This document shows, in pieces, positions 8,160 through 60,026 of a DNA stretch of 64,000 nt. This stretch comes from Isoetes taiwanensis (Eukaryota > Streptophyta > Lycopodiopsida > Isoetales > Isoetaceae): NCBI GenBank assembly GCA_021234155.1, contig JAJEKV010000059.1, positions 3,479,167 to 3,543,166 on the forward strand, read 5' to 3'. How positions within the stretch are numbered: position 1 is the stretch's first letter; each line of letters starts with the position of its first letter. The position numbers and the translations under genes were made by a program. The notes beneath the pieces are model-generated. The model was not told where the DNA came from. It did no database searches and saw nothing but the letters and a program-made list of their open reading frames with translations.

Positions 8160-11130
<2,971 letters not shown>

Positions 11131-20325: not shown

Positions 20326-21250
20326 ATCTCCCCCTTAGCCTGTGTAATCAAAGACACCCATCTGTTGTTTAGCCAAGATCAACTTCGGCTCCGTTAAGCA
20401 TATCTGCCTGTTGCAAAGTGGTGGGAATGTGTCTCACTTCGATTTCTCCCTTTTCAACCTCATCTCTTATGAAGTGATGATGTATCTCTATATGCTTTGT
20501 TCTCGAATGGCAAGTGGGATTTTGCTCATTGCAACTCCACTCTTATTATCACAATAAAGAATGCTTCGTAACCATATAATTTCTGGCGCTGCCAATGATA
20601 CCGCCACGTGTTCTGCCTCGGCACTTGATTTGGCTACACGTTCTTGTTTTTTACTAGCCCAAGATATGGCTGTATTTCTGATCTTGCAAATATATCCAGA
20701 AGTAAATTTCCTGTCATCTATGTCTCCTCCCCAGTTAGCATCAGGATATTCAACCAATTCGTTACCTTGATTTTGCGTGAAGTGGATGCCATGGTTGATT
20801 GTCCCCTTCAGATACCTCAACACCTGTTTAGCCGCAATTCAATATTGCATTCCAGGGTTATTGTTGAATCTGCTAAGTAAGTTCACTGCATCAGTGATTT
20901 CTGGTCTCGTGCCATTCGCAGTATACAACAAGCTGCCAATCAATTCACGATAAGGCCTCCTTTCCTCTTCTGCTAATTTAGGGCACATTTTGCCGCTAAT
21001 CCTTGTTCCAGGCACCATAGGAGTTTTTGCAGGGTTACATTCAAGCATCCGAAACCTATTTATCATCTTTTTGATGTGCTGCTCCTGAGTTAAATATAAC
21101 TCCCTCTTTATTCTATCTCTTCTAACCTCCATGCCCAGTAATTTTTTGAGTTCTCCTAGCTCTGTCATTTGGAAGCAGCTTTTCAACAATGCTTTGCATT
21201 TATTAAGCCAAGACTTGTCATTGCTAGTGATCACACAATCGTCCACATAC
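20326..21250 (-). pseudogene. Copia RT C-terminal half and RNase H
   Basis: The RT active site CLYVDDCVIT lies at the upper edge beside insertion A. It is followed by MTELGELKKLLGMEV, RPEITDAVNLLSRF, MLRYLKGT and the RNase H segment SWASKKQERVAKSSAEAEH. Frames break near 20830, and the RNase H end is altered before the polypurine tract. The frame starts exactly where insertion A interrupts it. Confidence 0.9.
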
Positions 21251-21274
21251 AAGCATGATTTCATTATTTGGAGA
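21251..21274 (+). repeat. Left terminal inverted repeat of the DUF7869 transposon
   Basis: Begins AAGCATGATTTCATTATTTG and pairs with the reverse complement of 31686-31709. Confidence 0.85.
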
Positions 21275-21487
21275 AAATAACGCAATTTTGAGAATTTTAA
21301 GCACACCTAATTTGCTCAAGCACAAATACTTTCACCTAGTTCTCGAGCCCAAGAAACTTGAGGTAAGTAACATACACATGTACATACAAATTATGTGTTA
21401 TACTTGTACGTGTACATGATACTTGTAGAAGCCCAATAATGGCCGTACATTCTACACCAATAATTCACATCAATAATTTTACTTCAC

Positions 21488-21494
21488 TATAAAA
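21488..21494 (+). promoter_or_regulatory. TATA box of the first small gene
   Basis: TATAAAA preceded by CTTCAC, 43 nt before the ATG at 21531. The same context recurs before the second small gene. Confidence 0.7.
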
Positions 21495-21530
21495 ATAGCT
21501 CGACTCGGGGGTAGAGGTCATTCATCTTCC

Positions 21531-21773
21531 ATGGCTTTCTCGATGCCTCGTCCAAAGCACATCCGATCTTTCAAGTGCTACTTGAGCTACAACGATCTGA
21601 ACGAATGCGCTAGAAATGGTATTAATCTTGATCCATGGCTCCAGTCTAAAGATGATGGTCCTGCTAGTGCTTGCAAGAAGCTCATTCGTGTTGTGGTCCA
21701 CATTTACTGGCTTCCTGATCAGGAAATCTATGAGCTGAATAGCATCACGAGCTTTGGTGTTGATGATGAGTGA
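21531..21773 (+). CDS. Small transposon-borne protein 1 (80 aa), unknown function
   Basis: An intact 80-residue frame begins at the ATG in TTCCATGG. It shares a pattern with the neighbour at 22209: an IRSFKC or IEAIKC segment, a Ser-x-x-Asp-Leu, LDPWL or LDPYL, an IYWLP or LIWLP core, then a Tyr-Glu and a terminal Asp-Asp-Glu. No family was recognised and there is no signal peptide or membrane segment. Conservation of both protein pattern and promoter spacing argues for a real gene. It might be an accessory protein of the transposon (DNA-binding or host-interaction), but that is a guess. Confidence 0.65.
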   Translation: MAFSMPRPKHIRSFKCYLSYNDLNECARNGINLDPWLQSKDDGPASACKKLIRVVVHIYWLPDQEIYELNSITSFGVDDE

Positions 21774-22165
21774 ATCTGTATCTGCTAAGGATATAATAAT
21801 GACATGAGTACCTATGCAGTATGTATTACAATCAATGTTATCAGTGATGACTATTGTATGTGTTTATGATATAATAATGGTATGAGCACCTATAAACTAT
21901 GTAAGGATGTAATAGCACATTGAATATTGTTTCATGTATCATACCTGAGTGTAGTGTAAGGGTGTACTCTTCGACTTCCAGTATATCTAATATTACTCAA
22001 GCACAAAAACTTCTACCATATTAAAATCCACAAAACATGTTTTAAAAGCATACACATATCCATACGAAAGATGTATTATACTTGTTTGTATACAACAGTC
22101 TTATACACGAGCAATAATGGCGGTAAAGTCTACCCCAATAATTCACCTCAATAATTCTACTTCAC

Positions 22166-22172
22166 TATAAAA
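22166..22172 (+). promoter_or_regulatory. TATA box of the second small gene
   Basis: TATAAAA in the same CTTCAC context, also 43 nt before its ATG (22209). Confidence 0.7.
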
Positions 22173-22208
22173 GCTTCTCACTTCGGGGCTAAAGTTCATT
22201 CATCTGCC

Positions 22209-22421
22209 ATGGATTTTTTGCCTTCATCAGTTCACCACATCGAGGCGATCAAGTGCTCAATGAGCCACTCTGATCTTGTCGGTTGCCTAGACAAGGGTCT
22301 TCTTCTTGATCCCTACCTGCGAAGAAAAGCTTTGGGTGTTATGATCCATCTGATTTGGCTTCCTGAGCGCAATAGCTATGAGATATCCGGGATCACCACT
22401 ACAGCTAGTGATGATGAATGA
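22209..22421 (+). CDS. Small transposon-borne protein 2 (70 aa), paralogue of the first
   Basis: An intact frame begins at the ATG in TGCCATGG and ends in Asp-Asp-Glu. Compared with the first copy it has a shorter middle: the segment after LDPYL lacks about ten residues. It keeps the KC, SxxDL, GxxLDP, LIWLPE and YEIxGIT positions. The sequences have clearly diverged at the protein level while the frame stayed open, which suggests selection at some stage. The function is unknown. Confidence 0.65.
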   Translation: MDFLPSSVHHIEAIKCSMSHSDLVGCLDKGLLLDPYLRRKALGVMIHLIWLPERNSYEISGITTTASDDE

Positions 22422-22557
22422 ATCACCTGTTTAGCATTGTATAGTGTAAGAGCTCTTGTGTTGAGATAAAAATGCAAGCGTAATGAATAATAACTAGTCT
22501 ATTGTAACTTGCATGTTATATATGATATAGTAATTATGTAAAAGAGCATTGCATACC

Positions 22558-25500
22558 TCAAGAATTCTCATCATCGTCGTTAGCTTCTTTAGCCACTAAT
22601 TCTTGCAACCGAGCCCCACACTCATGGGGATCACCATCGACAACGGCTCGGTCTCTACGCCCCAACCATAGTCTATTGTTTTCAAATGTTGGTAGCGTGG
22701 CGGGTCATTAGGATTGGGTCTCCAATTCTTGCTCCAAAGAATCCCTATATTGCATTGCATATGAGGTTCCCTTTTCGCAACAAAGCTCAAACCAAGAGAC
22801 AAACACCTCTTCGTAATGTGGGAGATTAGGGTCCCAGATTGGGTCCTCTTCGCAAAAGCCATCCACGCCGGGGCAGTTATCATGTGGCCCGATTAGCAAG
22901 AGCATTCCTTTCTTGACATCTTGGTAGGGGTCGAATATTTCAACCGGGTTCTTGGGTCTACCCGAAAGGCCCACGTGTAATGAGATGCTTCAAGGTGCTC
23001 ATCCACAAACACGTTTTGGGTTCTTCCAATGCACTTTGCCCGGTGTTGGGCCGAAATCCTGAATGACGGCTCTACCGGTGCACGCCCCCAAGCTTTTCGC
23101 AGCAAAGGTGGACCAAGAGTCAATAACTTCATTCATATATGTGTTGGACCATGAGTTATCGCCAAACTCTAGAAATAGCTGCCCCGGTGCATCATGTACT
23201 TGGCAATAGAAGCTCTCAATGCACCTATATCTTTCAAGCTCCCATATGGTGCGCATCTACCTTAGGTGACCCTCTCGGAATCATAGGTAAACCTTGGGCA
23301 TCCTCCTTCCACATTCTCCGATTCCCTTTTCGGGAGCCACCCCTATGCCCTGGCCTCATCTTGTAGAACATTAGTGGCCATCCATCCTTCATGCGAGAAC
23401 TTGAAGAGTAGAGGTTCCAAGTGACCACATAAACGGTCCTTCTTTTCGTGGATAAAACCTTTCACTAATTCCTTCCAATTAGGAACCTCTCGACACAAGG
23501 TAAGGTGAAGGAGACTTTGAACTACACCGGCTCAAGAGTTGCATAAGCTCGAATAGTCAATACATCTGATCTTCTCATTAGAGTAGAGTAGTTTCCAAAG
23601 AGGGCATCTATGTCATCGTGGGTGTGTCCAACCATCATGAATCCTACCGCACTTGATCAAAGACACCTAACCAAACCAAGTATGACAAGTAAGAGAAAAG
23701 ATATCTATTCTTATTTTGACCTGAGCAATTATCTAGCTGCAAGTAAAGCCTCCTAGGCAACTTGTTCGGTACCATGGGGCCTTTGTTAGGAGGCATAAAA
23801 TCATTTCTACTGCCATTTACCATTTTTGTCCTAAGGGCATCTGTGTTTAAAATTGCTCCACTCCAGCTGCTTTCAGGACGATCTGTATCTCTCAAATGGC
23901 CCCAATTATCCTCAGATTTATTCTCCAGTGTCTTCAAGGTATGATTCAAGGATCCCACATGAAAGTTAGAATCATCAGGCCAGAGGTCCAGTGAGAAGTG
24001 GCCCAAGGCACCTATACCATGGCCGTGCATGAGAGCACCTGTAACACTCACCTTCAGTCGTTCACCCCTCCATACAGACTTTGCTAGCTTTTCTAGACGA
24101 GGGACCATGGTCTTATTCTGATCCATCTTATCATGTATAATGGTTAAAGCGTGCTCAGGAGATCTATGAGACAAAGCTCTCCAGGACCAGTAAAGGCTCC
24201 TACATGAAATCTGGGCCGTCATATGTGATTTTCTCTCCATTGCAAGTACCCTTCTTTCATTTGGATCTCTGGTCTTAGCAAGCTTTTCCTTTATGACAAT
24301 ACAGGTGTTACACTTAGAAAATGCTATCCTTTTAGCTATTGCCACCTCTGAATGATTCTCTTTCCAAGCGCATTGAAATGACTTAAGGAGAAATATGCTT
24401 GCCCTGTCATCTCTCAGAAGCAGTAATATCTACTTCTTGGTGTATATCCTTCTTAGTCAAGACTGAAGGTAGCCTCTTAACATTTTGTCTGCTACCCTCG
24501 CTCGTAATTTTCGAGCGGTGTGGCATCGTCTCTGCGTTTTCATCTATGAACATAGATAGCACAGCATTGCCAGCCAAAGTATGAGACCTTGGCTTCTTAG
24601 AACCGCTATTTCCGTGCTCAGCAATTCTGTGGCCATCATTGAAGAGCTTCTTCCACTTGTAAAAAGTGGAAATGGGTACGCCATAGGCTTTATGCCATGC
24701 TTTGACGCGACTTTTTGTTTGTTATTCAACATCAGGTTGCGGACTACACCATTTTCAGAGCAAAGATCTAGTATGTTATATGCAAAGGTTGTGCGCTCCG
24801 AGGACTTCATGTTCCAGTAAAAGGTTCTCATGCAAGCTATCTCCCTGGATGTAAAATTTGCACAGCATCTTTTCATGCAGCACAGTGATGACCTGAAGTC
24901 TAAAATAGCCTCAGCACTAGTTTTTCTTTCACATTTGGTTTGTGATGGACGTGTCCTGGGTCTCCGATTGACCATGCGGTAAGGTCTCTTTTTGGTGATG
25001 CCAATTTCGGGTCTAATGGAGTAAGGTTCATTCTCCACATCCTTCTCCTTCACTGCAACCACGAGAGTAGAAACTGGAATGTTATCAACGAGCACGAAGG
25101 CTATGGGCCATCTTACAAGGTCATGCAGTTGGGGCATTTCTGCACAGGCTTGGCAGCGCATAGAGATCTTTTTGGGCATTGGAAATAGGCTCATGATAGT
25201 AGCAGCTATCGAGCCTTCCCCTAACTTCACGTCAGCGACAACATGGTTTGGATCGGCAAAAACGATAATACCATAACCGTAAGCCATGTGGCAGCATTCA
25301 TGCATGAGTGTGCATGCCTTCTCAATTAACTCATCTCTGGAAAGCCCTTGCACATGATTCGTCTCATTATTGGCTAATCTCTCATTGCATCCGACCCGCC
25401 CGGTTTATGCATTTAATCCGCCCCGGTGGCGTGCAAACTTCTTTCTCTCACAAGTCGACCATCAATGTCCTTCTTGTACCACAACACAAAACTCCCCACA

Positions 25501-25688
25501 GCTTCACAATTTTTTCTATTTCCTTTTGGGAATTGGTAGTGGCAACAAATGGGCCCATCCAAAACATTCACAATCGAAACAACCACCATACCCTCCGGGA
25601 CAATCGAATTGTGATGGCGCCAAATTGTGGACTCTTCCTTCTTCGCCACCTTTCTCCCAGCCAGATAAAGCGAGATTACATCCGCCAT
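22558..25688 (-). CDS. DUF7869-type DDE-like transposase, copy 1 (frame-broken)
   Basis: The likely start is ATG at 25686-25688 in a good plant context (AGGATGGCGG); the stop is at 22558-22560 after an acidic tail (ANDDDENS). Landmarks are a middle segment with MRTFYWNMKSSERTTFAYN (24.8 kb), then IIHDKMD near 24135, LYLQLDNCSGQNKN near 23730, and VGHTHDDIDALFG near 23615. The three Asp-bearing motifs are as expected for an RNase H-fold transposase; the catalytic role is inferred. A C-terminal segment (KKGMLLLIGPHDNCPG, then YQHLKTIDYGWG) also exists in the copy at 46.8-49.0 kb. Frames change near 25.4, 24.35 and 23.64 kb; the last looks like a single-base loss just before MVGHTHDD. It is probably not functional as it stands, unless some breaks are introns. 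Confidence 0.75.
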
Positions 25689-26712
25689 CCTACAAACAAG
25701 AGGTCATGAATATCGCGGCGCGATCTTCGTAAACAAATAGAACTCTACTACAAAAGACAAACGGGAGATAAAAAATGCTACGGACTTTCGCCACCGCGAT
25801 TTTATCGAAAGCATAGGCAAGAACGCGGTGGCCGCTTTACGCAAGCATTCACACTAGTCGTTTAGATAAGAACTCATGTGGAAAATACATGTCGAGATTA
25901 GCATGTGGTTTTCACTGCACTTGTAAATATATCGGAGTTCTTAAGTAAATAGCAAGTGTAGATGGTTGAAGATATCGCGATCAGCGATCATCGAGCACAA
26001 GAGTTAAAAAGCATTGACTTTCCGGACTAAAGCATTACTCTTACCTCACAGATCCGAAATGGTGGCGCCAACGTCTCCTTGTAGCCAATGACCCGTCAGA
26101 AGCTGCAGTGCCACAAAAACATGTTTTGTATCATCCACAAGGAGAAAGAAAGCATATATTTGAAACACGTGAACATTGTATAATAAATATAGCAGAGTGC
26201 ACAGGTTTGCTGAGAACATCTATTTTTAAATATTCTTGAAACATTCTTGAAGGAAACATTCTTGAAGGAAGAATTATTTATTATTGATCATGAACTAACA
26301 GCAGATTCTTAACAGGTTGTAGTTATCATTGAAATTCACCCTTTTACCTCGCCCAAAAGACACAAGTCGAAGCAGTGGAAGAAATCGAAATGTATAGTGG
26401 CGCAGTGCAAGCGGATTATCAGCGCCTTTGTCAGCGCCTTCAATTGATGCGGGATTCTGCAGCAAAACCTTTGGAGAACTTGGCACGCTTAGGGCGCTTT
26501 CGAAAGGCCTCCGAGATCTTGCAAAACAAACAAATTTGAATTGGCTTTTCCCGCTCTCTCCTAAAAATTAAACCAAAAAAATTTGTTTTCGCGGACGATA
26601 AAATCTTTATCTTATCCTAATGTTTGTTACCGAATTCAAATTTTCCTGTCACTGTCCATCCGTAATCTAGTTTCTTTTTCTGGCCTTTATGGCTGCTTAA
26701 TATGTCAGGTTC
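25689..26712. promoter_or_regulatory. Divergent intergenic region of the transposon, left part
   Basis: This is the sequence between the start of the transposase (minus) and the ParB/MTase-like gene (plus). It contains CpG-rich near-palindromes rare elsewhere in the window: ATCGCGGCGCGAT at 25712-25724, just upstream of the transposase ATG, and GATATCGCGATC at 25971-25982. No confident coding exon is seen. A LINE-tail-like phrase (GCGGACGATAAAATCTTTATC) occurs near 26595. Confidence 0.5.
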
Positions 26713-27391
26713 ATTTAAACGCGCTGCCTTGAAGCAGTACTTGGATGCTTGCTTCATGGCCAAGCTTTGGGATGCAGAGGCCCTGTCACATGTCAAGGTG
26801 GCAAATTATCGACAGCAGGTTAATCCCATGCTCACGAGGGGCCCACACCACTACACAAGCGCACCCATCTACCCATGAAAAGCGCGGGGTGATTGCTTCC
26901 ATTCGCGACGCAGTGCACACCACCTCCGCATTGAGACAGGGAGATGGATTCGAGCCGCTGAGGGGAGGGGAGTGCATCAATCGCCAACAGGAGCCATTGA
27001 GGATGAAAGTCACGCCCTCCGGGCTTGTCCGTAGACGCACGAGCATATCAGGGCTCGGTATGCTCGGTTAGTTGTGCCCCATCGCCCCTCGTGATGAGCT
27101 ACGAGCACGACCTCGTAGGCTTGTTGGGATCATTACCTCAGGAGGTAATGGATCGCGGACTTCAGTTATGCCCCCCCGTCCGACATTAACCTGTTTGTGC
27201 TTGTGATTATGTATATAAGCTGTGCAGTATGTCGGCATCCTTATTGCTACTAAGGTTTTCCCCAAAACCCTTTCGGGCGGGGTTTTTAATCCCGGTAGTA
27301 ATGCGCTCGTTGCTCTCTCTTTGTACTTGGGTCCCATAGGCCAGTTGGTCTCCGTGGACGATAAAATCATATTCTATTCTATTCTATTTAA
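26713..27391 (+). mobile_element. LINE copy 2, 5'-truncated 667-bp insertion with 6-bp target duplication
   Basis: The insert at 26719-27385 is bounded by ATTTAA at 26713-26718 and 27386-27391. It matches the 3' end of the larger LINE at 32.95-35.98 kb, starting in the segment that reads GCCTTGAAGCA in both. It ends with the conserved 3' segment (CAGTTGGTCTCCGTGGACGA) and a run of ATTCT units. It lies between the two divergent transposon genes and so arrived after that element. Confidence 0.88.
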
Positions 27392-27673
27392 TGAACTGAC
27401 TGTACGGGAGGAATTTGAACGCGGACGTCCAAGTAGATAAAGACCTCTTTTACCGATTGCGTGCTTTTTGCTTAGGGCCGATTTTCGCCGGTTCGTCGCA
27501 TTTACGACGGCGGTAATTCAATAAAGCCCATTATGGATGGGCACACATCATTATTATCACGGCAATTCCTTTTGTAATTAATCGCCATCGCGCGGGCGTC
27601 ATTATGGATGGCTAAACGCCAATCCACACATCATTATGCTTAAGGACTCCTTTAGAGAAGGTATTTAATTTCA

Positions 27674-27694
27674 GCGGCCGCGTTCCTTTATAAA
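27674..27694 (+). promoter_or_regulatory. GCGGCCGCG element next to a TATA box
   Basis: TTTATAAA at 27687-27694 is a good TATA box for the plus-strand ParB/MTase-like gene. GCGGCCGCG at 27674-27682, the core of the recurrent palindrome, lies five bases upstream. A further CGC-rich hairpin (TTTCGCGATA) is at about 27772-27781. Confidence 0.55.
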
Positions 27695-27794
27695 TTAAGC
27701 AAGATCGCCCATCAATCTCATATCATTCTAGTTTTGAGTAGTTGACCGCTTAGCGATTACACAACATCGCTATTTCGCGATATATTATAGTTGC

Positions 27795-30700
27795 TTGGAA
27801 AGATTAAGGTCCGCGGTTCTCTTGAGTAGTTTAACATTGTACAACGACCTATGCACTCACCACAGGCTTTTGTTAAAATCTCTTCTTCTTCTTCTGTTTC
27901 GTGGACTGGATGTCGAACCCATTCGTATTATAACCCCTTCTAATGAACGCAAATGGTGTATAGAGATTGCACAAGCAATACCACACATTAAAGGTGACCG
28001 CAGAAAGGACCTGTGCCTGTTCCTGCGAACTGGAAAGAAACCTGAGGACGTTGAACAAGTTGGCATAGTGGTGGCAATGTGGGAAGGCACGAAGAACAAT
28101 GTGCAAGATGCTATCATATGCAAAGATCGAGGACACACACCAATTGCGCCTCGGAGTACATTCGAAATGGCTAATTATGACCCATCTATGATGATGACAA
28201 CCAAAATGAAATAAGCCCGATACGAGGGGAAAAACATCCCAACATCAGCTAAGGGTTATGGATGGGTGTTGCCATCTTATGAATCTCTCTTTGTCGTATA
28301 AAGGGAAACAGAGACATCTTGGTAGGGTTCTCAAGATGCGTAAATGGTTTGTCCACGACAAGAAGCCTCCGAGCCTGTGCTTTGAAAGCGATTCGGGACG
28401 AGAAAATGCCCCTGTGATGGACACCAATTGGCTAAGAGCCGTGACCAAGAAAAAAAGTGTGAAGCCAATTGCTATTTTGGGAGAGCCTTCAAAGATCAAA
28501 AACAGCTTGTTGAAGAACCACAATCCATGATAAACCCCTCCCAGATTATTAACCCTACTCTTCCTCTTGCTTTTAAAGGCCCGAGATAGCACTACATCCG
28601 GTGGATTTATTCCAAAAAACTTACTACTTTCAAAATTAACCTTAGAAATCTGAACACTGATGATAGCCCGCAGCCCAGCAGTTCTCAAACCCCCCCTTCT
28701 GTTACGGAAGCCTCCTCTAGACTAGCATTGACATGTCCACACGCACCTGCCATTCCAGTCGAGTTGAAGTTCAATCCGGAAGAGGAACGCAAGATGGTAG
28801 AGCAAAGCACTCAAAAGCTTGAACAGTTTAAACGGTTTTACCCCTTAGGGGTTAATTGGTTTACCAAGATTTCTATTTTTGATTGTGAACCCGCACCAAA
28901 GAAACCCGACACACCGAATCGCGCATCAAATGACCATGTTCAAACTCTGGTTAAAAGCTTCAAAACATACCCAACAGAGGTCCTCACACCTGTTGACGTC
29001 GTGCCATTTGACCCTATTACCAGGTAACTGATTCTTTATCTTTTGGACACTCGTTGTTTAGATTTGACTTGATGGCTGTCTATTTTTCAGGAGGAGGGTG
29101 ACATGGAGCAATCCAGAGGATTTAAAGGGCAAGAAGTTTTACATTATTTCTGGCAACCACAATATTTGCGCGGCTCAACTTCTTTGTTCGGTCGTCGGCC
29201 AGTTGGAACTTCAACTAGAATTTGCTAAAGTATATGCTAGAAGAAGATCGAGAGTGCTCAACGGAAATCTTACAGACAAGGAATATATAGAGTTGAGTAT
29301 TCAATGCAACGAAGTAATTGCAAACACCGTCTACAGAGATCCACTGATTGAAAATCTGCAACAACTTCGTCATCAACACAAGGCTTATGGCTGTCCTCCA
29401 CAAGGACCGATAGGGACGGCTACAACTTCAGCTTGGAAGGTATTTATTCATTTTCTACTCGCCAACATCGCGGCCGCGATCTTGATGACCTTTGCTTCTG
29501 CAGGATTTCCATGAAATTGCAACGACCACTTTGAAAGTGCAGGAGCTTAAAGATGAAAAACAATTCATCTTTATGGATGAGAAAGTTTTCAAGAAGTTAA
29601 TGGAAGTTGCCGGACTGTGGGTGAACTGTAAGCTCAGTGACAACCATGGTGAGTTTCCGGACAAGCCATCCAAAACAAGGATCATACACTAGGTAACCTA
29701 CCTGTTCTGGAGCCAATCAGAAATATTCTAAAGCCAGAAGAGGCTAGAAAAAGAAAAGAGAAGAAAAATATTGGCATAGCAGTGACAAAGGATGGCATCC
29801 CTACTTCCTCCCCAGTGTCAGAGAATGCCACATTGATATTTATTGACGTCCGAGGGATGAACAAGGTATGGGATTGCAAGAAATACACAGACCTATTTAC
29901 AAGGATAGCTACCATGACTACTGCCAAAGTTTATCATTTGGTTAATATCATGCGCTCTGTGAATTTGCCCAATTGCTTGTACAGTCAGAAGCAAATTCAG
30001 GGAGGTGGCCACCTGTCTTTAGGTTCTTATGAAGAAATGGGTTGGGAGAACAAACGAAGGGTGAAAGAATATCAGTACTATATTAGTCATATGTGCATTA
30101 ACAGGAGTGATGTTCGTGTAGCATCTGTGCAACCTGAGCTGGAGCTTCGTCTATCTCCACACAGCAAGGCTCCTAAATCAACACCATTGCCTCCAATGCC
30201 GCTAACAGGTAATGAGGATGCCGATGAGAAGATAAAAAAGAAGTTTCAAACTCTTTTTACAGGCAAACCAAGATACAAATGGGCGGCAATGGAAGGAGAT
30301 CTTGTATTGAAATGCCAGCTGAAAACCTCGTATGCCTATTATATTGTTGATCAGTTGGTGCCCACCGACGGTTGCGTTCTGGATTTCTTTTCGGCTGGAA
30401 CAGCTTCTCGTGTCGCTCTTATGCAAGGCAAAAAGAGCATGGCCTTTGAAAGTTCAGGTAAAGTGTGTCGTTTCCTGAGGGCCTTCTTGGAAATACTTGA
30501 GAAAATGGCCAATCAAACTACGGGGGGATCTGAAGAAGAGGAGAAAGCAAAGAATGCAGAGCCTAATCCTTTGCTGCCCAACATCAGTATTACCCAAAAC
30601 ACAGATATATCAGGGTTGGATACCATTTTGGATAACCTCGATGCTAAATCCTACGAGGAGAGAATGCAAGAAACAAAGCGCTTGCTGGAAGCGACGGAAA

Positions 30701-31014
30701 AATGTATTGAAGCTCTGGAGCCCACTTTTCAAAAATTAAGTGCACTGAATGAGAAGATTGATGGGTACATGCCATTCTTGACAGACGAACATAAGTTTGA
30801 ATACACGGGCGTAGAGCACATGGAAATAGACCAACAACACATGGAAAATGAACCAACAAAGACATGGAAACGTAAGACCAAGATGAGGCAATTTGGGACA
30901 CAAGAGCATCGTGTACACTGCAAGAAGCAGAAGCTCTTTCATCCACACGAGATTGCTACTCAATCGGAGAAGGAACTTATAGGCGTGAACAGTGCAGGGG
31001 AGAGTGGTGCCTGA
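27795..31014 (+). CDS. ParB-like / DNA methyltransferase-like protein (spliced)
   Basis: A multi-exon gene diverges from the transposase. The 5' exons are uncertain: one open stretch is 27795-28214 and another 28258-28530 with MDTNWLRAVTKKK. The later part is firmer. An exon to 29023 (HVQTLVKSFKTYPTEVL) splices by GT-AG (29024-29090) to 29091-29439, which contains FYIISGNHNICAAQLL, a ParB-like GxH..AA motif. A 64-nt GT-AG intron (29440-29503) follows, then 29504-29648. Next comes either a 44-nt intron or a frameshift, then 29693-31014. The last exon has IDVRG (about 29842) where methyltransferases carry DPPY, then TSYAYYIVDQL and CVLDFFSAGTASRVAL (30373-30420), matching motifs X and I of beta-class DNA methyltransferases. 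A coiled-coil tail follows. The function is inferred; the enzyme may be inactive. Confidence 0.6.
29467..29480. promoter_or_regulatory. 14-bp palindrome inside an intron of the ParB/MTase-like gene
   Basis: ATCGCGGCCGCGAT is a perfect palindrome lying within the 64-nt intron 29440-29503. It is identical to the site at 31316-31329. Confidence 0.6.
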
Positions 31015-31315
31015 TTCACATGTGGAGCGCATCGCAAAGGTCATGGGTGTTGAGATTCCAGAGGTCACAGGTTATTCAGAGATGGACACAACACAAACTA
31101 TAGAATTGGGTAGAGCGCATGTCATCCCATGGCCAATGAAATGGGTGTGATACCCGATAGTGTATCCAAAACACAATCACGAGAATTATAATTGCATTCC
31201 TCAAGAATGATTACTGTACATTACTTCCTTCAATGGAAATTTTTGTTTCAGGAATATGTATTACCATATCTTTTTGTCCTTACTACTACTTCATGCATGT
31301 TTAATGTTAAAAATA

Positions 31316-31329
31316 ATCGCGGCCGCGAT
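31316..31329. promoter_or_regulatory. 14-bp palindrome near the right end of the transposon
   Basis: ATCGCGGCCGCGAT, identical to 29467-29480, about 380 bp inside the right TIR. A related site (ATCGCATTCGCGAT) follows at 31466-31479. Confidence 0.6.
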
Positions 31330-31424
31330 CCTCTGTGGCAAATACATAGCTTTAAATACTGAAATGTTTGTGCTATTCTTGCTCCACTGTACCTATTTTG
31401 TACGTAATGCTCTCATATGGTTTT

Positions 31425-31430
31425 AATAAA
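31425..31430 (+). terminator. Polyadenylation signal of the ParB/MTase-like gene
   Basis: AATAAA about 410 bp after the stop codon, followed by a T-rich stretch. Confidence 0.45.
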
Positions 31431-31685
31431 AAGCTCTTTATTTTGTCTCTTTTCTGCTGCGAAAGATCGCATTCGCGATTCTTGCGATAAGATAGAGCAT
31501 TCCCTCCTACTACATTCTACTCACGATGGACCTTTGCATGAGCTGTAAAAACTATATTTCCGAACAACACCGAATCATTGGTAGAATTTGTACAAAAAAA
31601 TGCCAACTTTTACTCAGTTGCTAGTAGTTTCTGCACTATATGGCTAACCACGAACCTATTTCATGCTAAACGAGAATTTCAAATT

Positions 31686-31709
31686 TCTCTAATTAATTAA
31701 TTCATGCTT
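31686..31709 (-). repeat. Right terminal inverted repeat of the DUF7869 transposon
   Basis: The reverse complement begins AAGCATGAATTAATTAATTA and pairs with 21251-21274. It is followed directly by the ATAC target copy and the resumed copia reading frame. Confidence 0.85.
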
Positions 31710-31713
31710 ATAC

Positions 31714-32945: not shown

Positions 32946-35900
32946 ATGGGGAGTTATCCATTGCTATGGCATGTGCTTTCATTTCTAGCTGAGGATGTGT
33001 TGCAAATGGACCCCGCAGAGATGGTTTGGCCAAGGGCGTCAGATGACAGCCAGGTGACACGGTATGGCCGGCAGCTGCTGTTGCTGGGCAGTATCTTTGA
33101 CCTGGTCATTTGCAATGGGCTAGCACAGTGGCCTTCCTCCAGCCGCTTCACTTGTAGACAGGAGAACCAGGGGGGCGGCACCAGTGTGGTGGATTACGTG
33201 CTAGCAGACGAGCAATGCCTACACTTGGTCACTTTCGCTTGAGCCGGGGACGGGTGGTAGGGGCGAGGAAGTAGATTCCGACCATCAGCCCTTGTTCTTG
33301 CAGATAGATTGGCAGCCAACCAGAGCACCCATTGCCCCAACACCCCATGTACCACGGTTTGCGTCCCGGACTATGATCATGCGGCGGTCTATGCGAGGAT
33401 GCTTGAACATGAGCTGCGGAAGTCGCTGCAGCTCCCCACACTTCAACGGCCGAGACGGCCCGGTGAACCGGCTCCTTCCGAGGGTGGCGGCAGATGCTTT
33501 GGGAGAGGCCGCTCGGCGATCCACGAGGGGCTGCAACCACCTTCCCCGCAATCCGGTTCGATGGCGAATGTCGGGAGGCTGAAACGATGGCTCCGCCAAG
33601 TCTTTGGACCCCCCACCATTCGCTGCGGGCCGTCCGTCAATACCGCTCCTTCCTCAAGACCAAAGAAAGCGGGTACCTTGCGAACTTCGGCGTGATGTTT
33701 GGTCTACTAGACCGCCACCCTAGGGCCTTACGAGAAAGGTCTTGAGTAAGCTGCTTTGCCCCCCACGGGAAATATTACCCGGAACAATGGGTGAGATACT
33801 TGCGGCGGTTGTATGACCCAATGGGAAGCGAGGCAGCCCGAGTACCTCCATGAGCGAGGCCTAGCGGTCATTAATGAAGGGATGTCATAATGGGCACCTG
33901 GCGAACGCCGCTATGGGGAAGGAAGCAGATTTGGATGGTATCGTGGTGAGCTTCTCAAGTGGGCGGGCCCCAATGGTGCCGGTTCTCACGGACTCTTCAA
34001 CGGGGCATTGCAAGAAGGCTTACCCCCCAATGGACTACGGTAGAGTTGTGCCCATATACAAAGCGGGGGACCCCACGGCCCGCCAACTATCGTTACCATT
34101 ATGGTCGGGTTACGTCTTTGCCAAGTTGCTTTGCCGGGATTCTTGAGCGGCCCGACACTTTGGTAGAGGATGGAGAAGTCGCGGGCTCTCACGCAGGCGG
34201 GCTTCCGCCCGGCATTCTACTATTGACCATATCTTCACTCTGCGAACACTCATAGAGGATAGCGGAATCAACGCCATAACTGTCTTTGTTGCTTTGTGGA
34301 TTTCGCAAAGGCTTTTGACCACGGTTATTACCGGGATAAGTTGTGGGGATGATTGAGGCAAGTTGGGGACCCCGTCGACTTGAGAATGCTATTTACGCAC
34401 TATCACGAGGCTTGCTCGGTCGCGTCTCACCTTTGTCGGGGAGCCCGTTGTTAGTAGCATTGGGGTGCGCCGGGGCTGCCCTCTATCCCCGGCGCTCGCC
34501 GGCTTGTACATTGACCAGGCTAGAAGAATGGCTAGAGCACGGGGAGGCTTCAGTTGATGCACCACATAATCCGGCAACTCATATATGCCGATGATGTTGA
34601 CTGCTCGCATATACCCCGGAGGACATGCAACGCCACCGGATGCTTTGGACACTTTTACGCCAATTCACCGGCATGAGAGTTAACTTGGCCAAGACGAGGG
34701 TGCCGTTGGTCCCATCATCCGGCACCCACGCCTTCCCTCATTCACTTACGGTAAGGTAGTGGAGGTGGCTCAGTCTTATAAGTATTTGGGTATTGAGTTT
34801 TCTACTACCACACTTTGGGATGCATCCATCGGGTTACGGGTCCTTTGCAGTCGGAAAGCCCATGCAATGCAATGCAACAAACAACAAGGCGAGAAGTCAG
34901 ATGCATGGGGTCACCGGGCACACTTGTTGAGGGCCTTGGTTGAGCCGGTCCTCCTCTATGGGGGGCGTGTGGGGGGCAAAGTGATATCCCTCACCACTTG
35001 GAACGATCTAGAGCAGTCTGTAAGGCCTTCTTGGCCCGCACGGGAGTCAAATCCACGGTCCCATATCGATCTTGCTCCGGAAGCAGGCTTCCTTCCATTA
35101 CAGAGGGCTGCCTTTGGAACGTCACATTATTTACTTAAGGAAGGTGGTGGCTATGGATGAAGCCCGGCTGCCCAACCTTGCTTTTGGCGGGGCGATGGGC
35201 CCGCAGTGACTCAAAGCTTCTTTGGAAAGACAAGCAAGCCCAGTGGTTCTCGCGATGGAATGTGCGAGCACACAGATGTGGACCGGTGCATACACCGAAG
35301 GAACGCTACCGCCTTGAAGCAAGATTTTGGATGCTTGCTTCATGGCCAAGCTTTGGGATGCAGAGGCCCTGTCACATGTCAAGGTGGCAAATTATCGACA
35401 GCGAGGTTAATCCCATGCTCACGAGGGGCCCACACCACTACTCGCGCACCCATCTACCCATGAAAAAGCGCCCGGGGTGATTGCTTCCATTATACGAGGT
35501 GCACACCACCTCCGCATTGAGGCAGGGAGATGGATTCGGGAGCATGGGGAGGGACGAGTCCGCCGATCTTTGTCAACGAGCGCCATTGAGGATGAAAGTC
35601 ACGCCCTCCGGGCTTGTCCCGTGCACGAGCATATCGGGCTCGGTATGCTCGGTTAGTTGTGCCCCATCAGGCCCTGCATGAGCTACTGAGCACGGCCTCT
35701 GTAGGCTTGTTGGGATCGTACCTCCGTGAGAGGTAATGGATCGGACTCGGTTATGCCCCCTCGTCCGACATTAACCTCATTTTGTGCTTGTGATTATGTA
35801 TATAATCTGGCAAGTATGTCGCAAGATCCTTATTGCTACTAAGGTTTTTCCCAAAAACCCTTGGGCGGGGTTTTAATCACGGTAGTAATGCGCCTGCTAC

Positions 35901-35979
35901 TCTCTCTTTGTACTTGGGTCCCATAGGCCAGTTGGTCTCCGTGGACGATAAAATCATATTCTATTCTATTGATTGCACC
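32946..35979 (+). mobile_element. LINE copy 3, 3-kb partial element with endonuclease and RT
   Basis: This is the longest copy of the family. It starts in the apurinic-endonuclease domain (VTRYGRQLLLLGSIFDLVIC, then GGGTSVVDYVLADEQ at 33171-33215). It continues with the pre-RT region, then RT motifs (VVPIYKAGDP near 34040, IRQLIYADDVD near 34570 with an intact YADD, MRVNLAKTRV, VAQSYKYLGIEF near 34765). A C-terminal segment (LLRALVEPVLLYGGRV) follows. It ends with the conserved 3' sequence and ATTCT units at about 35960-35979. Frameshifts are numerous and no continuous protein remains. Base composition is GC-rich compared with the surroundings. Confidence 0.87.
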
Positions 35980-46752: not shown

Positions 46753-49023
46753 TTATCCTTCATAGAGATTGTACCCCTTTCTCGGATCCACCTTGTCCTT
46801 TCTGGGGTTCCATGACATCAACACAGATTTTATTTCCACCCATTGGGGCGGATCACTTGCATCATACTTGCATTGCTTATCAAAACAATCTTTGTAGTGC
46901 TCTTTTTCAGTAATGACTCCTTTTCCACTTACTGGGCGCCACCACTCCACATGCACCTTGTTTCTGTTAGGGTTATTAGCTTCTCTACAAATGCTCGAGA
47001 TGGTATACCCCGACCAAATAGGATAAGTATCTTCATCTGATGGCCTGACGATCAAATATTGGACATCCTTCAAATCCATCTCTGGATCATATGGAGCAAG
47101 TCCATAATACTTGGGACGCTCTTTTCTAGGTCCAACATAGTGCTCTTCTTCCTCTTCCATCTCCTCTTCGGACTCCTCTGTCATCAAGTGGATCGACTGC
47201 TGTTCATGTTGAAATTGACCATGGTCGAGCCTCCATCGACTTTGAGGTAGCCAACCCTCTCGAAGGATACTACTACTTGTGTCCAAACTCCCTAAAAGTA
47301 TATGAACTTCATTCCAATAATTTACAAGTGCTTTATTGCACACTCTTCTCTCTGGTGCTATGTGTTTATCTGCTAAGGATTTCTCCCAGTACTTTATATA
47401 CTCCATTATCCCTTCCATAGTCCGTTCACAGTCCTTCACTTCTCCTAATGGTTTCATAGCCTTAGGCTCTCCCGTCGGCACCATTGGTTCACCTGCCACA
47501 TCCTCTTTCAAATCAATATATCCTTATCTTCCAGTTTCCACACGGGATCTCCATCCCTCATCTTGTATTGCATTATTGGCTTTCCATTTTTCACCCAAAA
47601 CCTAAATTGCAATGGAGCACTATGCCCAATAAGGTCTTCAGAAGCATAACCCTCTATGAACTCTTTCCAGTCGGGGATTTCTTGTATCAATGAACCAATA
47701 GGAGGAGGTGAAGAACACTGCTTAAATAGCTCCAAAAGCCTCGGATAGATGGTGACATCACTTTTCTGCAATTTGATCCTATAATGCCCAAACATTGCAT
47801 CAATGTCTTCGTGAATGTGGCCAGGCATCACGTAACCAACATAGACAATTTCAAACACTCTAACCCATGTAAGATACAACAAGTATGAAAATAAGTATAT
47901 ATTTTTATTCTGGCCAGCACAATTGTCAAGTTGCAAGAGTAGCTTCTTGGGTAGTCGGCGCCCCGGTATTAGGTTCACGTGAATTGAAGGTGCTGGCCCA
48001 TTCATCCTTCCTATGTTCAAATCCTCTAGTTTCATGGGAGAAGTGCCATGCAATGCCTTGAAAAGATGTTGCAATGGCTTACAAGAATGAATATCTCCAT
48101 TAAAACCATGTTCCAAATCGCGCAATGCTTAATGCTATCAACATGGAAGTTTGGACCATCACCACATAATTCTAATGTAAAATGGTCGTGATGCACTGCT
48201 CTCTGGCCATGAGTTATGAATCCAGCTAGTGATATTTGCAATGGGAAAGACCTTGCAACAGACTTTGATATAGCCCTAAACTGAGGCAAACAGGTTTTTT
48301 GCCGATCCATCTAGTTTTTTGCCGATCCATCTTGTCATGAATGACGCATAAAAAATTCTCTAGTTCCATTGTAGACAAGCATCTCCACATCCAGTATGTT
48401 GATTGACATGACATTTGCTCCATCGTGTGAATTCTCATTTCCTTCCGAACCGCTGATCTTTCCACCTCAAGCTTCGAATTGTACTTTGAGAAATTGTTAT
48501 ATTACATTCTTTTGACATCTAAAAAATGCTTACTCCAGAGCTTACTGAATGCTAATTGTGAAATCTTGACCACACCCATTTCCTCTAGAAGATTGTTGAT
48601 CATTTGTGTGAAATATGCAGGCAACATTCGAACTACTTTCCTGCATCCCTCTTCATCAACCGTACTTTTATGAGGCATACTCTCAGCATGATAGTTAACA
48701 AACTTCTCGAATAAACTCTGAGCTGCAAGCACCCTGGGGTTTGTCCTTGCCTTTTTGTCTCGCCTTTCCCGGATTACCATGCCAACCTATTTGAGCCCCC
48801 CCTCTTTTGGTTCCGCCTTAATCTCCACTATGTAGAGGCTGATATACCTAGTATAGTTGTCACTGGATTGCTGCATATCCATTTTCCCACCAATAGGAAA
48901 TCCCATGTTCCTGACATCAGGTGATAGCCTAAATGCATGTTTTATGACATTGTAAATATAAGTTTTCTTAGCGTCATGACTTTTCTCCTTATAGATTGAT
49001 CTGGCTTCCACAAGTTCTTTCAT
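46753..49023 (-). pseudogene. DUF7869-type transposase, copy 2 (decayed)
   Basis: Same family as the transposase at 22.6-25.7 kb. Blocks from the 5' side are KELVEARSIYKEKSHDAKKT (49.0 kb), the HAESMPHKSTVDEEG block (48.7 kb), CVIHDKMDRQK (48.35 kb), LQLDNCAGQNKNIYLFSY (about 47930) and MPGHIHEDIDAMFGHY (about 47825). The C-terminal domain (46753-47511) is better preserved than in copy 1: an acidic stretch EESEEEMEEEEE, then DLKDVQYLIVRPSDEDTYP and NKVHVEWWRPVSGKG. That segment reads like a BAH- or chromo-type small barrel, though this is only an impression. Frameshifts near 48.12 and 47.51 kb break the frame. No TIRs were found around it. Confidence 0.7.
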
Positions 49024-49711
49024 TGTGAATCTACCAAAGCAATGGTTGGGGCTGCCACAAATCCCCCCCTGATGGCTTGCATGGTCTCTTCACTGCAGTT
49101 GTTAGTATCTTTCATAGTCTGAACCTATGACTCCTACCCAGCTCTGATTCTAGTGGGAGTCGACTGATGGCTAGGATCTTCATATAGCTTCAGACAGTCA
49201 TGGCAGTGGCTTTGGCTAGCAATAGATAATGGCTAGGGTTGACCACTCCATCCACTCCTCGTGCATACTTTGCAGATATGCGAGAACATGATCTGTCCTG
49301 ATTATAGTCTTTCAGAGATGCAATCCCATGGTATCACCTAATTAAGGAATTACTCTAAGTTTCATATCCCAAGTCTGATGAGGCCAAAGAAGTACAAGTC
49401 CCTTCCCGAGGCACAATGGTCTTGTGGGCAACTAGAGAATCGTGGCGATACATATCCGACATGAACCACCCCATCCCCCTCTTTCCAAGTACATGAGTCA
49501 GGACGACACCTGCAACTCCATGAGCCAAGGCAACACCTTCGACCTGGGGGGTGTCATACCATACTCGACCCGAGGTAAGTGACTGACTATAGGACTACTC
49601 CACTATAAGAACCCAAGTAGCTATGCTCAATAGGGTCATACTTCCACATCTTCAATGCCCATGTTGTCTTGTTCTCAATCACAACACTCAATCACAACAT
49701 AGCTTCTACAG

Positions 49712-49798
<87 letters not shown>

Positions 49799-51000
49799 GG
49801 GCTCTCTCGCAAAGGCCAAAATAGCATTTAGGAATTATTGGGTCTAACTAGAAGCATCTTCTCAATAATAGCTACTAGATCTCTACCCACCTTCTTGTAT
49901 ACACAAGAGGTGCGAACAATGATTGGCCAATATCATTTATCATCGATAACTTGATAAATAATCATAAGATCAACTAATCTCAATCACATGCATCTAACTT
50001 ACAATTAGGGTTTGTTGATTGGTGTTCATGATCAAAACTGTGGGTTCTAGAATGGCTCCACTTAAGATACAACGTGCAAACTCATCTGGAATGCTAGCTT
50101 TTATATGAACTACCTACTTAGTTGCTCAAAATACATGCCCCTGAAGAGTCTTGACGTCTCTATCTCTTGCAGGTAGTTTAAAGTAGATGCCCTTCAAGCT
50201 AATGCGAGTGCGCTCCTGGGGCTGCTGTTACAAGTTGTGCTGTCGAAGGCAATCCTTGAATGGGAGCTGAAAGAGCGATTCAAGGTTGCAGCAGATCATG
50301 GAGCAAAAGTGAGTTAGGTCAGAGTTTGGCCTTAAATAGGTTGGGGTTTATATGATGCCCCACTTGGCTTCAATTGGGCGCATCCACATGGCGTGATACC
50401 TATAAGGTGAGGTGAGCCCATGTGAAAAATAGGCTTTCATATCTTGAGCTAGCTAAGTGATAATAATAACTAGGCCTTTCCCTTGCTAGGTATGGCCTAT
50501 ATCGGTAAGTACAAATCTATTTGGCAAGACTTATACAGTGACGTGGCCATAGGACATGCATATTTATCCCATGTATTCTAACAAGAAAGTCACACAACAC
50601 CACCCCCTCCCCCCCCACAGCATAATGTCGTTAAGGTAATATGAACCTGCATCAACTTCATATAACAATACTTATAGATGAAACTTGAGAAGTTATTATA
50701 GAGATAAACTTCTGATATATTATTTGAATCTATAAATGTGAAGGCTATTGTTATACATTTACATACAAAATTTTATAGCCTCAACAAGTTTATTTGACAA
50801 AATTAAGAGTCACAAGATTAAGACATAATTTTATGGACTTTTTTTCTTTTTTTCTATTGGCTGCAAGTAGCACATCACATAAGTAATAAGTTGTAGTTTT
50901 AAGGGTCCACTTCCTTTTAATCTATTTTATTCTAATTATGAATAGAAAGGGGAATCTTACCCCATAATGGCCTTCAGATTTGTATCCTATAATGCCTAGA
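49024..51000. other. Spacer containing a (TG)n tract
   Basis: No gene was recognised in about 2 kb apart from the microsatellite at 49717-49792. The sequence is of mixed composition with short frames only. Confidence 0.45.
49717..49792. repeat. (TG)n microsatellite, about 38 units
   Basis: An uninterrupted dinucleotide array that ends in a G-rich stretch. The open frame through it (Cys-Val repeat) is an artefact. Alternating purine-pyrimidine tracts of this length can adopt Z-DNA. Confidence 0.97.
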
Positions 51001-51009
51001 ATGTATGCA

Positions 51010-51290: not shown

Positions 51291-51409
51291 AAAAATAAGC
51301 CATAATCCTCTGGATCTCAAGGGTCGCGAAGCAGCAACAGAATACATCATTGTTGTCATAGCTTAACTAAAAGTGCATCTCTTTAATGTAACACTTAGAA
51401 TCTTTGGTT

Positions 51410-53269: not shown

Positions 53270-53274
53270 TATTC

Positions 53275-56397: not shown

Positions 56398-56402
56398 GGC
56401 AA

Positions 56403-57050: not shown

Positions 57051-60026
57051 ATTAAAAAGGTCGCGATGAAATCTTGAGGGGGTATAATATTCTTCGTAAG
57101 CGTATGAACGAGTCCAAAATCCCCTTCACTTGTGTGAAGGCATTAGCCTCCCAAAAACCTTCCGTCATTGTGGACACGGGCTGGCTTCGGACAGTTACTA
57201 AGAAGAAGGCAAGACAAGTTAAAGAGGCAGCTGCAACTAAAAAAGACTCTTCTGATATGGAAGAGGGAGGTCATAGAGTAGAGGAAGCAAAAACTGCTGA
57301 GAAGGTTAAAGCTAAGAAGAAGGATCATAAAGATCCTAATAAAGAGAAAGAGGGAAAGGTTAGCAAGAAAGAAAGCAAAAAGGAGAAGAAATCGAAGAAG
57401 GTCAGAGATAGGAAGGAAGGGAAAGAGGTAATGGAAGAGGTTGAGGAAGAGAAAAAGGAAGAGCATGGGCTAGAGTCTTCTGACAAGGAGGCCACTCCTA
57501 AAAAACATTGCAGACAAATTCATACACCTGGTCTTGAGGCAAGTCCAGCCAGGGTGGAAAGGAATACAGAGCAGGTAACTGGAAGTGGTGGTGACCACCC
57601 TGCAAGCCCATCGCACACTAAGGAAGCTTCACAGGATACTACAAGCACTCCGACCAGAAGAGCCACTATGGAGCAGCAGCCTAAAGAGCACAGGCTAACA
57701 TTGAGGATCACCTAACACTTGCTAGAAGTGCCTCAGAATCTTAAGGTAGAAAGGTCGGAGGAGGAAAAGACGACAGAAACAACATTGCAGAAGACCTTTG
57801 ACCATTGCCATCTGTTTCCTCTGAGCATCACGTTCACGATATAGATAAACATATTCGATCTATACCATGGGCCTCCAAACTTAACGTCTAGCTAAGGAAT
57901 ATGAAGCACGTAAAAATATTAGTGGATTCTTTTCAAAGAGATCCCCATCTAGTGTTTCCATTAAACCCCCTCAAAAAAAAAACTAGGCCCTTGGAAATCT
58001 GAGGATGATCTTATAGGGACGCACTATTACATAGTGAATGGCAATCACTCAATCCTTACCGCTCAGCTGGTTTGTAAAAGACTAGGTAATGCGAAGTCCT
58101 AGGAACAAATGTCAAAGATTTATGAGTTTCGGACTTGTCGAGTTGTATTTGGTATAGTCAACGAACAAGAATGCCTGCAGCTTAGTTGTGAAGCCAATGA
58201 TATCGTTGCCAAGACTATCTTCAAGGAGCCTTACACTGCCAAAATAACCCACCTACAATACTAGTATGCTCTTCGTGGCAAGTGTGATCCTTCAGGTCGT
58301 GGTCAATCACGATCAGAACCCAATAAGATACTTAGAGTTTGCTTTGTATTAGCTTCTTAATTTTGATTTGAAATAGCGCCGTGATGTCATTTGCTGAGGT
58401 TTCAAAAATTATTTGCTTTGGTTTTAGTATTCCATTTTGCAGTTTAAGCTTAGAAATAGCGCCATGTTGCCATTTTCTTTCAGAAACTAAAGTCTTCTTG
58501 TTTTCGGCGTTATCTAGCTTTGGCTGAAGTTACCATGCGTGATAAGCAATCAAAGATATTTTTAACCAGTGGGTCTTTATGCTTGAAGATATTTTTCAGT
58601 TATTCTTGTCCCTTTAGATCTCGTGGAAGGGTAGCAAATTAAAAGATAACAAGGGCCAAGTTATTACCTGCACCTGGGCAAAAGACAGTGACTACTTCAG
58701 TCAAATCTATCAAAGGCGCATGTGGGGTCTCAACTATGAAGACTGCGGGTTCTGTTTCAGAAAATGCTAGTAAGAAGACCTATGTCAAGGCCACAAGTGA
58801 TTATATAGATAAGCACTTCTTTAAGACAAGGGCAAAGACACTAAGAACTATTGTGTTCTTGAAGACGAAAGTTTAATTTGAATATGTAAAGTATAATTTC
58901 CTGAAGAATAATATCTCATTCATAGATTTCAGGACAGCTGCGCCAGGATTTGACGATGCTAGCTTGATTGCCATAGGCACTCTGCATAATAAATGGGTTA
59001 CAGATGGAGCGACTAAGGAAGGAGTTTAAGGTAATATATCGCCAGCCTTGGCGAGGTTGATCTAAAATATGGTTTTGCAGAGAGAGAATACTGAAAACTT
59101 CCATTGCAAAGTGGAACTGACTGAATAGTAGGGGGCAAGTTGTGTGCATTCCTGTAGCAGTATCCTTGATTGTTCCGGACATTAGGGGCATAAATCCAAT
59201 GTGGAACAAAACAACATTACTTTAATACAGCTATGAAGAACACTACAACTGAGTTTTTCTGGATAGTATGCTTTGCAAGACTAGAGCATAATTTTTTGCT
59301 ATCATCTGTGTTGGATAATCTAGACTCCAGGTCCAGAGTTTTTATTGGCATATATGAGGATGAATACAAGAATCCATCTGCAACAGAGGTTCAGGAGCCA
59401 CATGCTCTTGTCACAAAAATTCAGCCCACTACATATTGACCTAAGATTCTCATTTACCAGTCATCCTCAGGAATTGTCACGTAATGAAGAAGAGGCAGAC
59501 GGGGAGAGTGAGGCCTAAGAAACTATTCAACAGCAGATTCAGATACAGCTTGCAAGGCATGCCATGGGATATAATCATGAGAAACCAGCTGGGACCTGCT
59601 ACATGTTCTTATCTCGTGCAGAAGCTGGTACAGCCAGGAACATGAGTCTTTCATTACTTCTCAGGTGGTTCATTTGGCTGGGCTGCATTGATCCATAAGA
59701 GATTTTGCATTTGTTTGAGCATGAGCCGGCCAGGCAACAGTGCATCCAGGGCATTCTTGATAGGCTTGACCGCCTTTGAACCCCATCCCTGTGGCCGAGA
59801 AACAAGGAGCTGCTATTCAACAAGGTGCATGACAATCAAGTCAACTAATACCTGAAGATGTTCCTGATGATGTGAACTATGATATGATCAAGAATACTGA
59901 GTCCGATTTGGACATTCTCAAAGATCCTGAGTTTATTGCCAGAGGGTTTAAGACATTTCAAGTTGATCCCATGGTCGGGACATCTAGTTATGGTACTGGC
60001 GCTGGGGAACTTGGTCCTACTGAGTG
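57043..60026 (+). pseudogene. Second ParB-like gene relic of the transposon family
   Basis: This is a decayed relative of the gene at 27.8-31.0 kb. The block 57074-57715 reads VIVDTGWLRTVTKKKARQ, matching MDTNWLRAVTKKK of copy 1, then a Lys/Glu-rich low-complexity region. At 57900-58260 it reads KHVKILVDSFQRDPHLVF and HYYIVNGNHSILTAQLVCKR, matching the ParB-like part, including the GNH motif and the final NDIVAKTIFKEPY. A frameshift in the A run at 57968 and a stop near 58100 break it. Farther on (58.6-60.03 kb), coding-like fragments such as ARGFKTFQVDPMVGTSSYG occur without a recognisable methyltransferase motif. It lies outside the copia element, so it is an independent insertion. Confidence 0.6.

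Follow-up and report, generated by a model that had tools for sequence, protein, structure and literature searches.

A multi-copy DNA transposon of Isoetes taiwanensis with a DUF7869 transposase gene and a divergent partner gene of putative methyltransferase ancestry

Why would a plant transposon carry, divergently from its transposase gene, a second large gene reminiscent of ParB proteins and DNA methyltransferases? The question is raised by a 10,459 bp element (21251-31709, without its target duplications) in the 64,000-nucleotide stretch of Isoetes taiwanensis contig JAJEKV010000059.1 analysed here, referred to as the window. On balance, our data favour a cut-and-paste transposon with many copies in the genome, the one in the window being decayed, that encodes a DUF7869 transposase and a methyltransferase-derived accessory factor, with catalysis lost in the family of partner genes found in the window (family A), while a sister family elsewhere in the genome (family B) would have kept it.

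Ends, copies and genes of the element

The element interrupts a copia reverse transcriptase and is bounded by terminal inverted repeats (TIRs) of 26 bp (AAGCATGA... on the left and ...TCATGCTT on the right), 22 of whose 26 bases are identical between the two ends, with the target site duplication (TSD) ATAC on either side; joining the copia flanks with a single TSD copy restores ...LVMALYVDDCVITSND.... The hallmarks given in the initial annotation of this DNA, i.e. the TIRs, the target duplication and the restored copia frame, were all recovered, and its coordinates (21247-31713) stand as to the ends, the span taking in both TSD copies in addition to the element proper.

The leftmost 154 bases of the element match at least 40 places in the genome at 95-100 % identity (40 scored of 1043 first-look candidates). 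As a sample of copies, 10 kb of sequence was retrieved at each of 20 loci among the best matches to the left end, and six of them were lengthened by 0.7-0.9 kb of new sequence. The element start AAGCATGA is present in 19 of the 20 and altered in L019. Both ends are readable in the window copy and in six fetched copies (L012, L016, L017, L018, L019 and L024), and no right end was found within the fetched sequence of the remaining 14. Five of these seven two-ended copies show an exact 4 bp TSD, i.e. ATAC in the window, AGTT in L017, TTAC in L018, GAAT in L024 and, allowing one altered base at the right end, GCAT in L016; no exact duplication is seen in L012 (TTCT/TTAT) or in L019, with its altered left end. 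Recognisable sequence of all four genes described below, with broken frames, lies between both ends in L012, L017, L018 and L019, so that several copies do have this gene set flanked by matching ends, as the initial annotation had proposed to look for. The DNA transposon is thus real and its set of four genes recurs; calling it complete holds for its ends and not for its genes, as the transposase is broken, the partner gene is about 320 bp short and a repeat is nested in between.

Adjoining the left end are two small paralogous open reading frames (ORFs), about 41 % identical to each other in other copies and 80 codons long in most of them, the second being short by 10 codons in the window; the two small genes had been noted from the start and are confirmed as such, and the first has no match in Pfam. 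The assignment of the transposase gene to DUF7869 is confirmed, its match to PF25273 reaching E 2.8e-19 and 69.9 bits, against a curated cut-off of 26. Its frame is interrupted within the DUF7869 domain in the window copy, and the ORF at 24407-24721 shows a weak trace of HTH_23 (E 0.0028, below the cut-off of that family).

In five of the fetched copies (L020, L022, L025, L027 and L028), the first 580-710 bp, including small gene 1, are 92-96 % identical to the window, and the interior is mostly 66-84 % identical, with short stretches of 88-96 % in L025 and L028. This comparison of ends and interiors suggests an exchange of ends between families, in a sample that is biased by having been picked by the left end.

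The partner gene and its sister family

Within the TIR- and TSD-bounded element, the partner gene occupies the strand opposite the transposase. That it is divergent and spliced, as first described, is confirmed by two introns whose GT-AG borders recur in copies: applying a strict pattern, intron 1 was found in six of the 20 copies and intron 2 in three, and the second half of the gene was recovered by tblastn in 12. Window-type partner genes make up family A, in which identity to L027 across this gene is 54-59 % for L017, L020 and L028, and to which a second element within the same window contributes a fifth lineage.

Several comparisons point towards a methyltransferase ancestry. Aligned by hhalign with nine beta-class viral methylases, family A scored 46.1 at motif I, the null maximum being 22.1 in 60 column shuffles, and RsrI, a member of the beta class, was the sole PDB molecule that it matched (E 1). 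Besides the match at motif I, family A shares with the beta-class N4/N6 methylases (RsrI, PF01555) the motif order, IV before I, at a spacing of about 180 residues; it differs from them in lacking PPY, family B having D(L/I)PY instead. At the motif IV site, four family A lineages and the window read FID(I/V/M)R(G/S/A) and the second element reads PDIRG, (D/N/S)PP(Y/F/W) being absent from all five family A lineages read, and motif I falls one residue short of FxGxG. Therefore, since the catalytic motif IV is absent from all five lineages, family A is predicted to be a pseudo-methyltransferase, which we regard as probable, and an active methylase in the window lineage appears unlikely. The methyltransferase ancestry itself is supported by these alignments, and with it the prokaryote-like origin that had been suspected; the claim of methyltransferase-like motifs is supported for motif I, and the catalytic motif IV is absent.

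Taken alone, the window gene gave nothing significant in Pfam, PHROGs, NCBIfam, PDB, a set of 5.8 billion proteins, viral contigs or phages, and a single-sequence structure model of the window segment (mean predicted local distance difference test score, pLDDT, 32.1) was too low in confidence to assign a fold. A PDB profile match to a cytochrome trimer (E 2e-4) was discarded, because a single short stretch accounts for all three hits, the chain being repeated in the trimer.

Family B was met in a whole-genome search with PF01555, in which at least 150 places out of 1442 candidates scored above the cut-off, the best at 3e-17, and the description of the family is based on 20 loci read (L052-L071). 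Motif I, VLDxFxGSGTT, is present in all 20, and motif IV, D(L/I)PYG, in 16, not being found in L053, L059, L061 and L065. One example with two exon reads joined matched PF01555 at 1.2e-19 and the phage methyltransferase family phrog_67 at 7.1e-26, and in hhalign family B reached 4.7e-20 across the whole domain, so that by its motifs and profile matches it reads unambiguously as a methyltransferase family. In the comparison of family A with family B, motif I scored 33.4 (null maximum 19.2 in 60 shuffles) and the motif IV region 21.4 (null maximum 17.5 in 100 shuffles), and the IISGNHN box of the window gene aligned over 14 columns with the GGNHS of the sister family at 26.0 (null maximum 22.0 in 100 shuffles).

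This last box, (I/V)(S/N)GNHS, is what resembles ParB by eye. One of two family B sequences also gave weak matches to phrog_723, a ParB-like partition protein (E 0.019), and to DUF6551 (E 0.015), and the ParB-like identity of this region of the partner gene is suggestive only.

The pairing with DUF7869 extends to family B. PF25273 likewise has at least 150 scored places in the genome (9903 candidates), and at least 24 of the 150 scored for PF01555 have one of them no more than 15 kb away, against 0.4 expected. In 22 of these 24 close pairs the two genes are divergent, and the paired PF01555 places belong to family B as far as they were read. In 11 of the 20 family B loci, the 14-mer CAAATTAAACGGGA occurs exactly within about 600 bp past the methylase gene. 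It belongs to a palindromic terminus shared by these loci, AACA..TTGCAAATTAAACGGGAGTG, which shows an 11 bp inverted repeat (AAACGGGAGTG, CACTCCCGTTT) with flanks that differ between loci. Locus L014 at first looked like genes of family B attached to an end of family A; this was rejected, as the family B terminus starts at the junction, and in our reading an element of family B has inserted here into one of family A, with its far end outside the sequence seen. As a family B terminus thus lies inside a family A element, family B elements seem to insert as units. In L054, a transposase piece lies tail-to-tail with the methylase, at a greater distance from it than the family B terminus has at other loci, and was set aside as probably part of a neighbouring element.

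State of the window copy and its surroundings

The coordinates of the features are listed in Table 1.

Table 1. Features of the element and of the second element, in window coordinates
Feature	Position	Strand	Remarks
Left TSD copy, ATAC	21247..21250	.	
Left terminal inverted repeat	21251..21276	+	22/26 identical to right end
Small gene 1, 80 codons, conserved, no known family	21531..21773	+	tblastn over fetched copies; no Pfam match
Small gene 2, paralogue of small gene 1, 70 codons	22209..22421	+	tblastn over fetched copies
Broken DUF7869 transposase gene	22596..25703	-	ORFs 23644-24429 and 24544-25404, and smaller pieces
Nested repeat	26726..27388	+	About 87 % identical to 16455-17121 and 35311-35970
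ParB/methyltransferase-like partner gene	27850..31014	+	Divergent from transposase; start codon not fixed; several frame breaks
Intron 1, GT-AG	29024..29090	+	Borders identical in L011, L017, L019, L024 and L026; altered in L018
IISGNHN box, ParB-like signature	29143..29163	+	By sequence
Intron 2, GT-AG	29440..29503	+	Length 64 and borders identical in L011, L017 and L019
Deletion point, about 320 bp of partner gene gone from window copy	29674..29675	+	Comparison with eight close copies
FIDVRG, position of methyltransferase motif IV; catalytic PPY absent	29839..29856	+	
VLDFFSAG, methyltransferase motif I	30376..30399	+	hhalign to beta-class methylases
Right terminal inverted repeat	31684..31709	-	End common to L012, L017, L018, L019 and L024; L016 with one altered base
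Right TSD copy, ATAC	31710..31713	.	
Second, distant DUF7869 transposase gene	46753..49089	-	PF25273 1.2e-33, 116.8 bits on a piece; separate element
Second ParB/methyltransferase-like gene, decayed, divergent from second transposase	57740..59776	+	Frame-tolerant comparison

The second element (46753-59776) repeats the divergent arrangement of transposase and partner. Its transposase matches the first one of the window in tblastn at 1.4e-31, and the frame-tolerant comparison of its partner gene gave scores of 276 and 149 against 30-49 for shuffled proteins (six each). No clear TIRs were found for it, and copia-like ORFs were recognised by eye inside it, around 53.9-55.3 kb.

Both large genes of the first element have broken frames, and the window copy as assembled is non-autonomous. 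The roughly 320 bp gone from its partner gene are present in all eight close copies that cover this point (L009, L011, L012, L017, L018, L019, L024 and L026), and the nested repeat, probably a 3' end resembling that of a long interspersed nuclear element, is not present in the ten copies spanning the insertion point (L009-L012, L016-L019, L021 and L026). The window also holds an inverted pair of 2.5 kb repeats, 86 % identical (16455-18940 and 33512-35970); the repeat found inside the element corresponds to the end of this 2.5 kb repeat.

The view that every frame break reflects decay was dropped, since disagreements among copies and indels cluster at CWG. In an alignment of 11 sequences (window 22901-26200), the disagreement of copies with their consensus peaks at the middle base of CTG (0.249), CAG (0.240) and CGG (0.221), against 0.027-0.136 at the other triplets shown, and the CWG excess is found in ten of the 11 sequences, the exception being L011. 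In the partner-gene region, 178 of 373 short indels lie near CWG, with CWG and two flanking bases making up 22 % of positions. Deamination does not explain this excess, because methylation does not fall on the middle base. According to its publication, the assembly derives from nanopore reads (v9.4.1) and was polished with racon and pilon (PMC8566536). Miscalls at methylated CHG fit the CWG excess, so that the CAG/CTG (and CGG) disagreements are probably nanopore errors and some apparent frame breaks may be artefacts; real mutation at CWG sites may occur alongside. Such errors would mimic pseudogenes in the methylated repeats of this assembly.

Elsewhere in the window, an uninterrupted ORF of 691 codons (38412-40487, plus strand) begins with a four-unit 33 bp repeat and presumably encodes a protein resembling plant sulfate transporters, and a perfect (TCTA)42 array is located at 9122-9289.

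Alternative explanations, known relatives and significance

In the mechanism that we consider, the DUF7869 protein would be a DDE-type transposase cutting at the AAGCATGA ends, and the partner protein a DNA-binding accessory factor acting on the element's own DNA. In family B, with FSGSGTT at motif I and D(L/I)PY at motif IV, the partner would add methyl groups to adenine (N6) or cytosine (N4), and the mark on the element's DNA might time transposition or allow an escape from silencing. Because its catalytic motif has been lost, family A would keep only a role in binding or bridging, with the S-adenosylmethionine (SAM) fold as a scaffold.

Several results weigh against a decayed transposon with a methyltransferase-derived accessory factor, and DNA binding, methylation and a part in transposition are predicted functions of the partner protein. 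In Pfam, L017 and consensus pieces match PF01555 best, at E 0.047-0.09 and thus below the cut-off, and neither the L027 read-through nor the window ORF gave any match. An alignment of the copies found no relative in the set of 5.8 billion proteins, hhalign of family A with the methylase family of HSTV-1 was weak (probability 12.6 %), and the hhalign probabilities between families A and B are low (31 % for motif I, 6.6 % for motif IV and 11.9 % for the GNHS box). Two of the 24 close pairs are not divergent, i.e. one is convergent and one lies on the same strand, and no solved structure related to the DUF7869 domain of the second element was found. As to ParB, the PF02195 profile has no match in the whole genome, although it matches in ten of 14 control genomes, and the comparison of family A with the ParB-methylase family of HSTV-1 scored 14.7, with a null median of 13.0 and a maximum of 16.7. 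The ParB-like motifs first proposed are plausible, though no profile match is significant.

Could the resemblances to methyltransferases and ParB be chance motifs in an unrelated gene family? The direct database matches of the window gene are all below significance, as this would predict, but three collinear stretches align to family B above all shuffles, motifs I and IV are spaced as in beta-class enzymes and the gene has the same partner in the same orientation as the sister family, which makes chance very improbable. Quite unlikely, too, is an active self-marking DNA methyltransferase in the window family with an unusual motif IV (DIRG). The D and R of this motif are kept in all five lineages read, so that the site looks constrained, and motif I is kept as well; however, known amino-methylases contact the target base through PP(Y/F/W), which family A lacks, whereas D(L/I)PY occurs in 16 of the 20 sister loci read from this genome, and the motif I of family A is one residue short. 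We also find it unlikely, if somewhat less so, that the partner gene is a passenger without a role in transposition: giant algal transposons do carry many accessory genes of unknown function (PMC12477816), but the divergent pairing recurs in the sister family, the window family and the distant second element, which counts against a passenger because such a gene would be lost or reshuffled.

A different origin, which we hold possible though doubtful, would place the element in the Sola1 superfamily and make its ParB-methylase gene an old Sola1 accessory inherited by algal and lycophyte elements alike. Sola elements produce 4 bp TSDs, as five of the seven two-ended copies do exactly. Moreover, Sola1-1_Ec32 is described as carrying the same type of gene opposite its transposase strand (PMC12477816). 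This proposal builds on TSD length and gene layout.

Sola1-1_Ec32, an element of 21.5 kb with a Sola1-class transposase in the brown alga Ectocarpus, is a published parallel. In the account of this element, a gene opposite the transposase encodes a ParB-like protein of 1104 amino acids with an N4C/N6A methyltransferase, predicted by the authors to be a methylating enzyme (Dinatale et al. 2025, PMC12477816), and similar ParB-methyltransferase proteins are cited there from green and red algal transposons (Iyer 2011; Petroll 2025, as cited in PMC12477816). A ParB-methyltransferase gene opposite the transposase is, according to this account, already described in algal transposons (PMC12477816). 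Sola1-1_Ec32 and the Isoetes element are both large DNA transposons with such a gene in this position; the latter differs in its length of 10.5 kb, its lycophyte host, its DUF7869 transposase and the missing motif IV of the window family. Gene 52 of the archaeal virus HSTV-1, a ParB-methylase, carries both PF02195 and PF01555, whereas the ParB part in Isoetes is too diverged to match PF02195. Both window transposase genes match DUF7869 (PF25273), a family without a stated function, and in the literature searched, which left subscription journals outside its scope, we found no paper naming DUF7869 and none tying ParB to DNA transposons of Isoetes or other lycophytes. New here are the DUF7869 transposase, the vascular plant host, the large expansion and the one degenerate branch.

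It is tempting to go further, and we do so tentatively and at less than even confidence, in proposing that at least 150 and perhaps more than 1000 transposons of this genome carry a divergent, prokaryote-type amino-methyltransferase with a DNA-binding region that would mark its own element with N6-methyladenine or N4-methylcytosine, one lineage having turned it into a non-catalytic binding subunit. The use of either base in the DNA of land plants is disputed. With many plant transposon genes bearing intact motifs of bacterial-type amino-methylases, it becomes testable where and on what such marks would be written, and through the degenerate lineage nature itself allows the control of elements that have catalysis to be compared with that of elements that lack it. 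The presence of an active-looking and a dead-looking branch in one genome shows that a gene type known from algal transposons reaches the vascular plants, where it goes with DUF7869.

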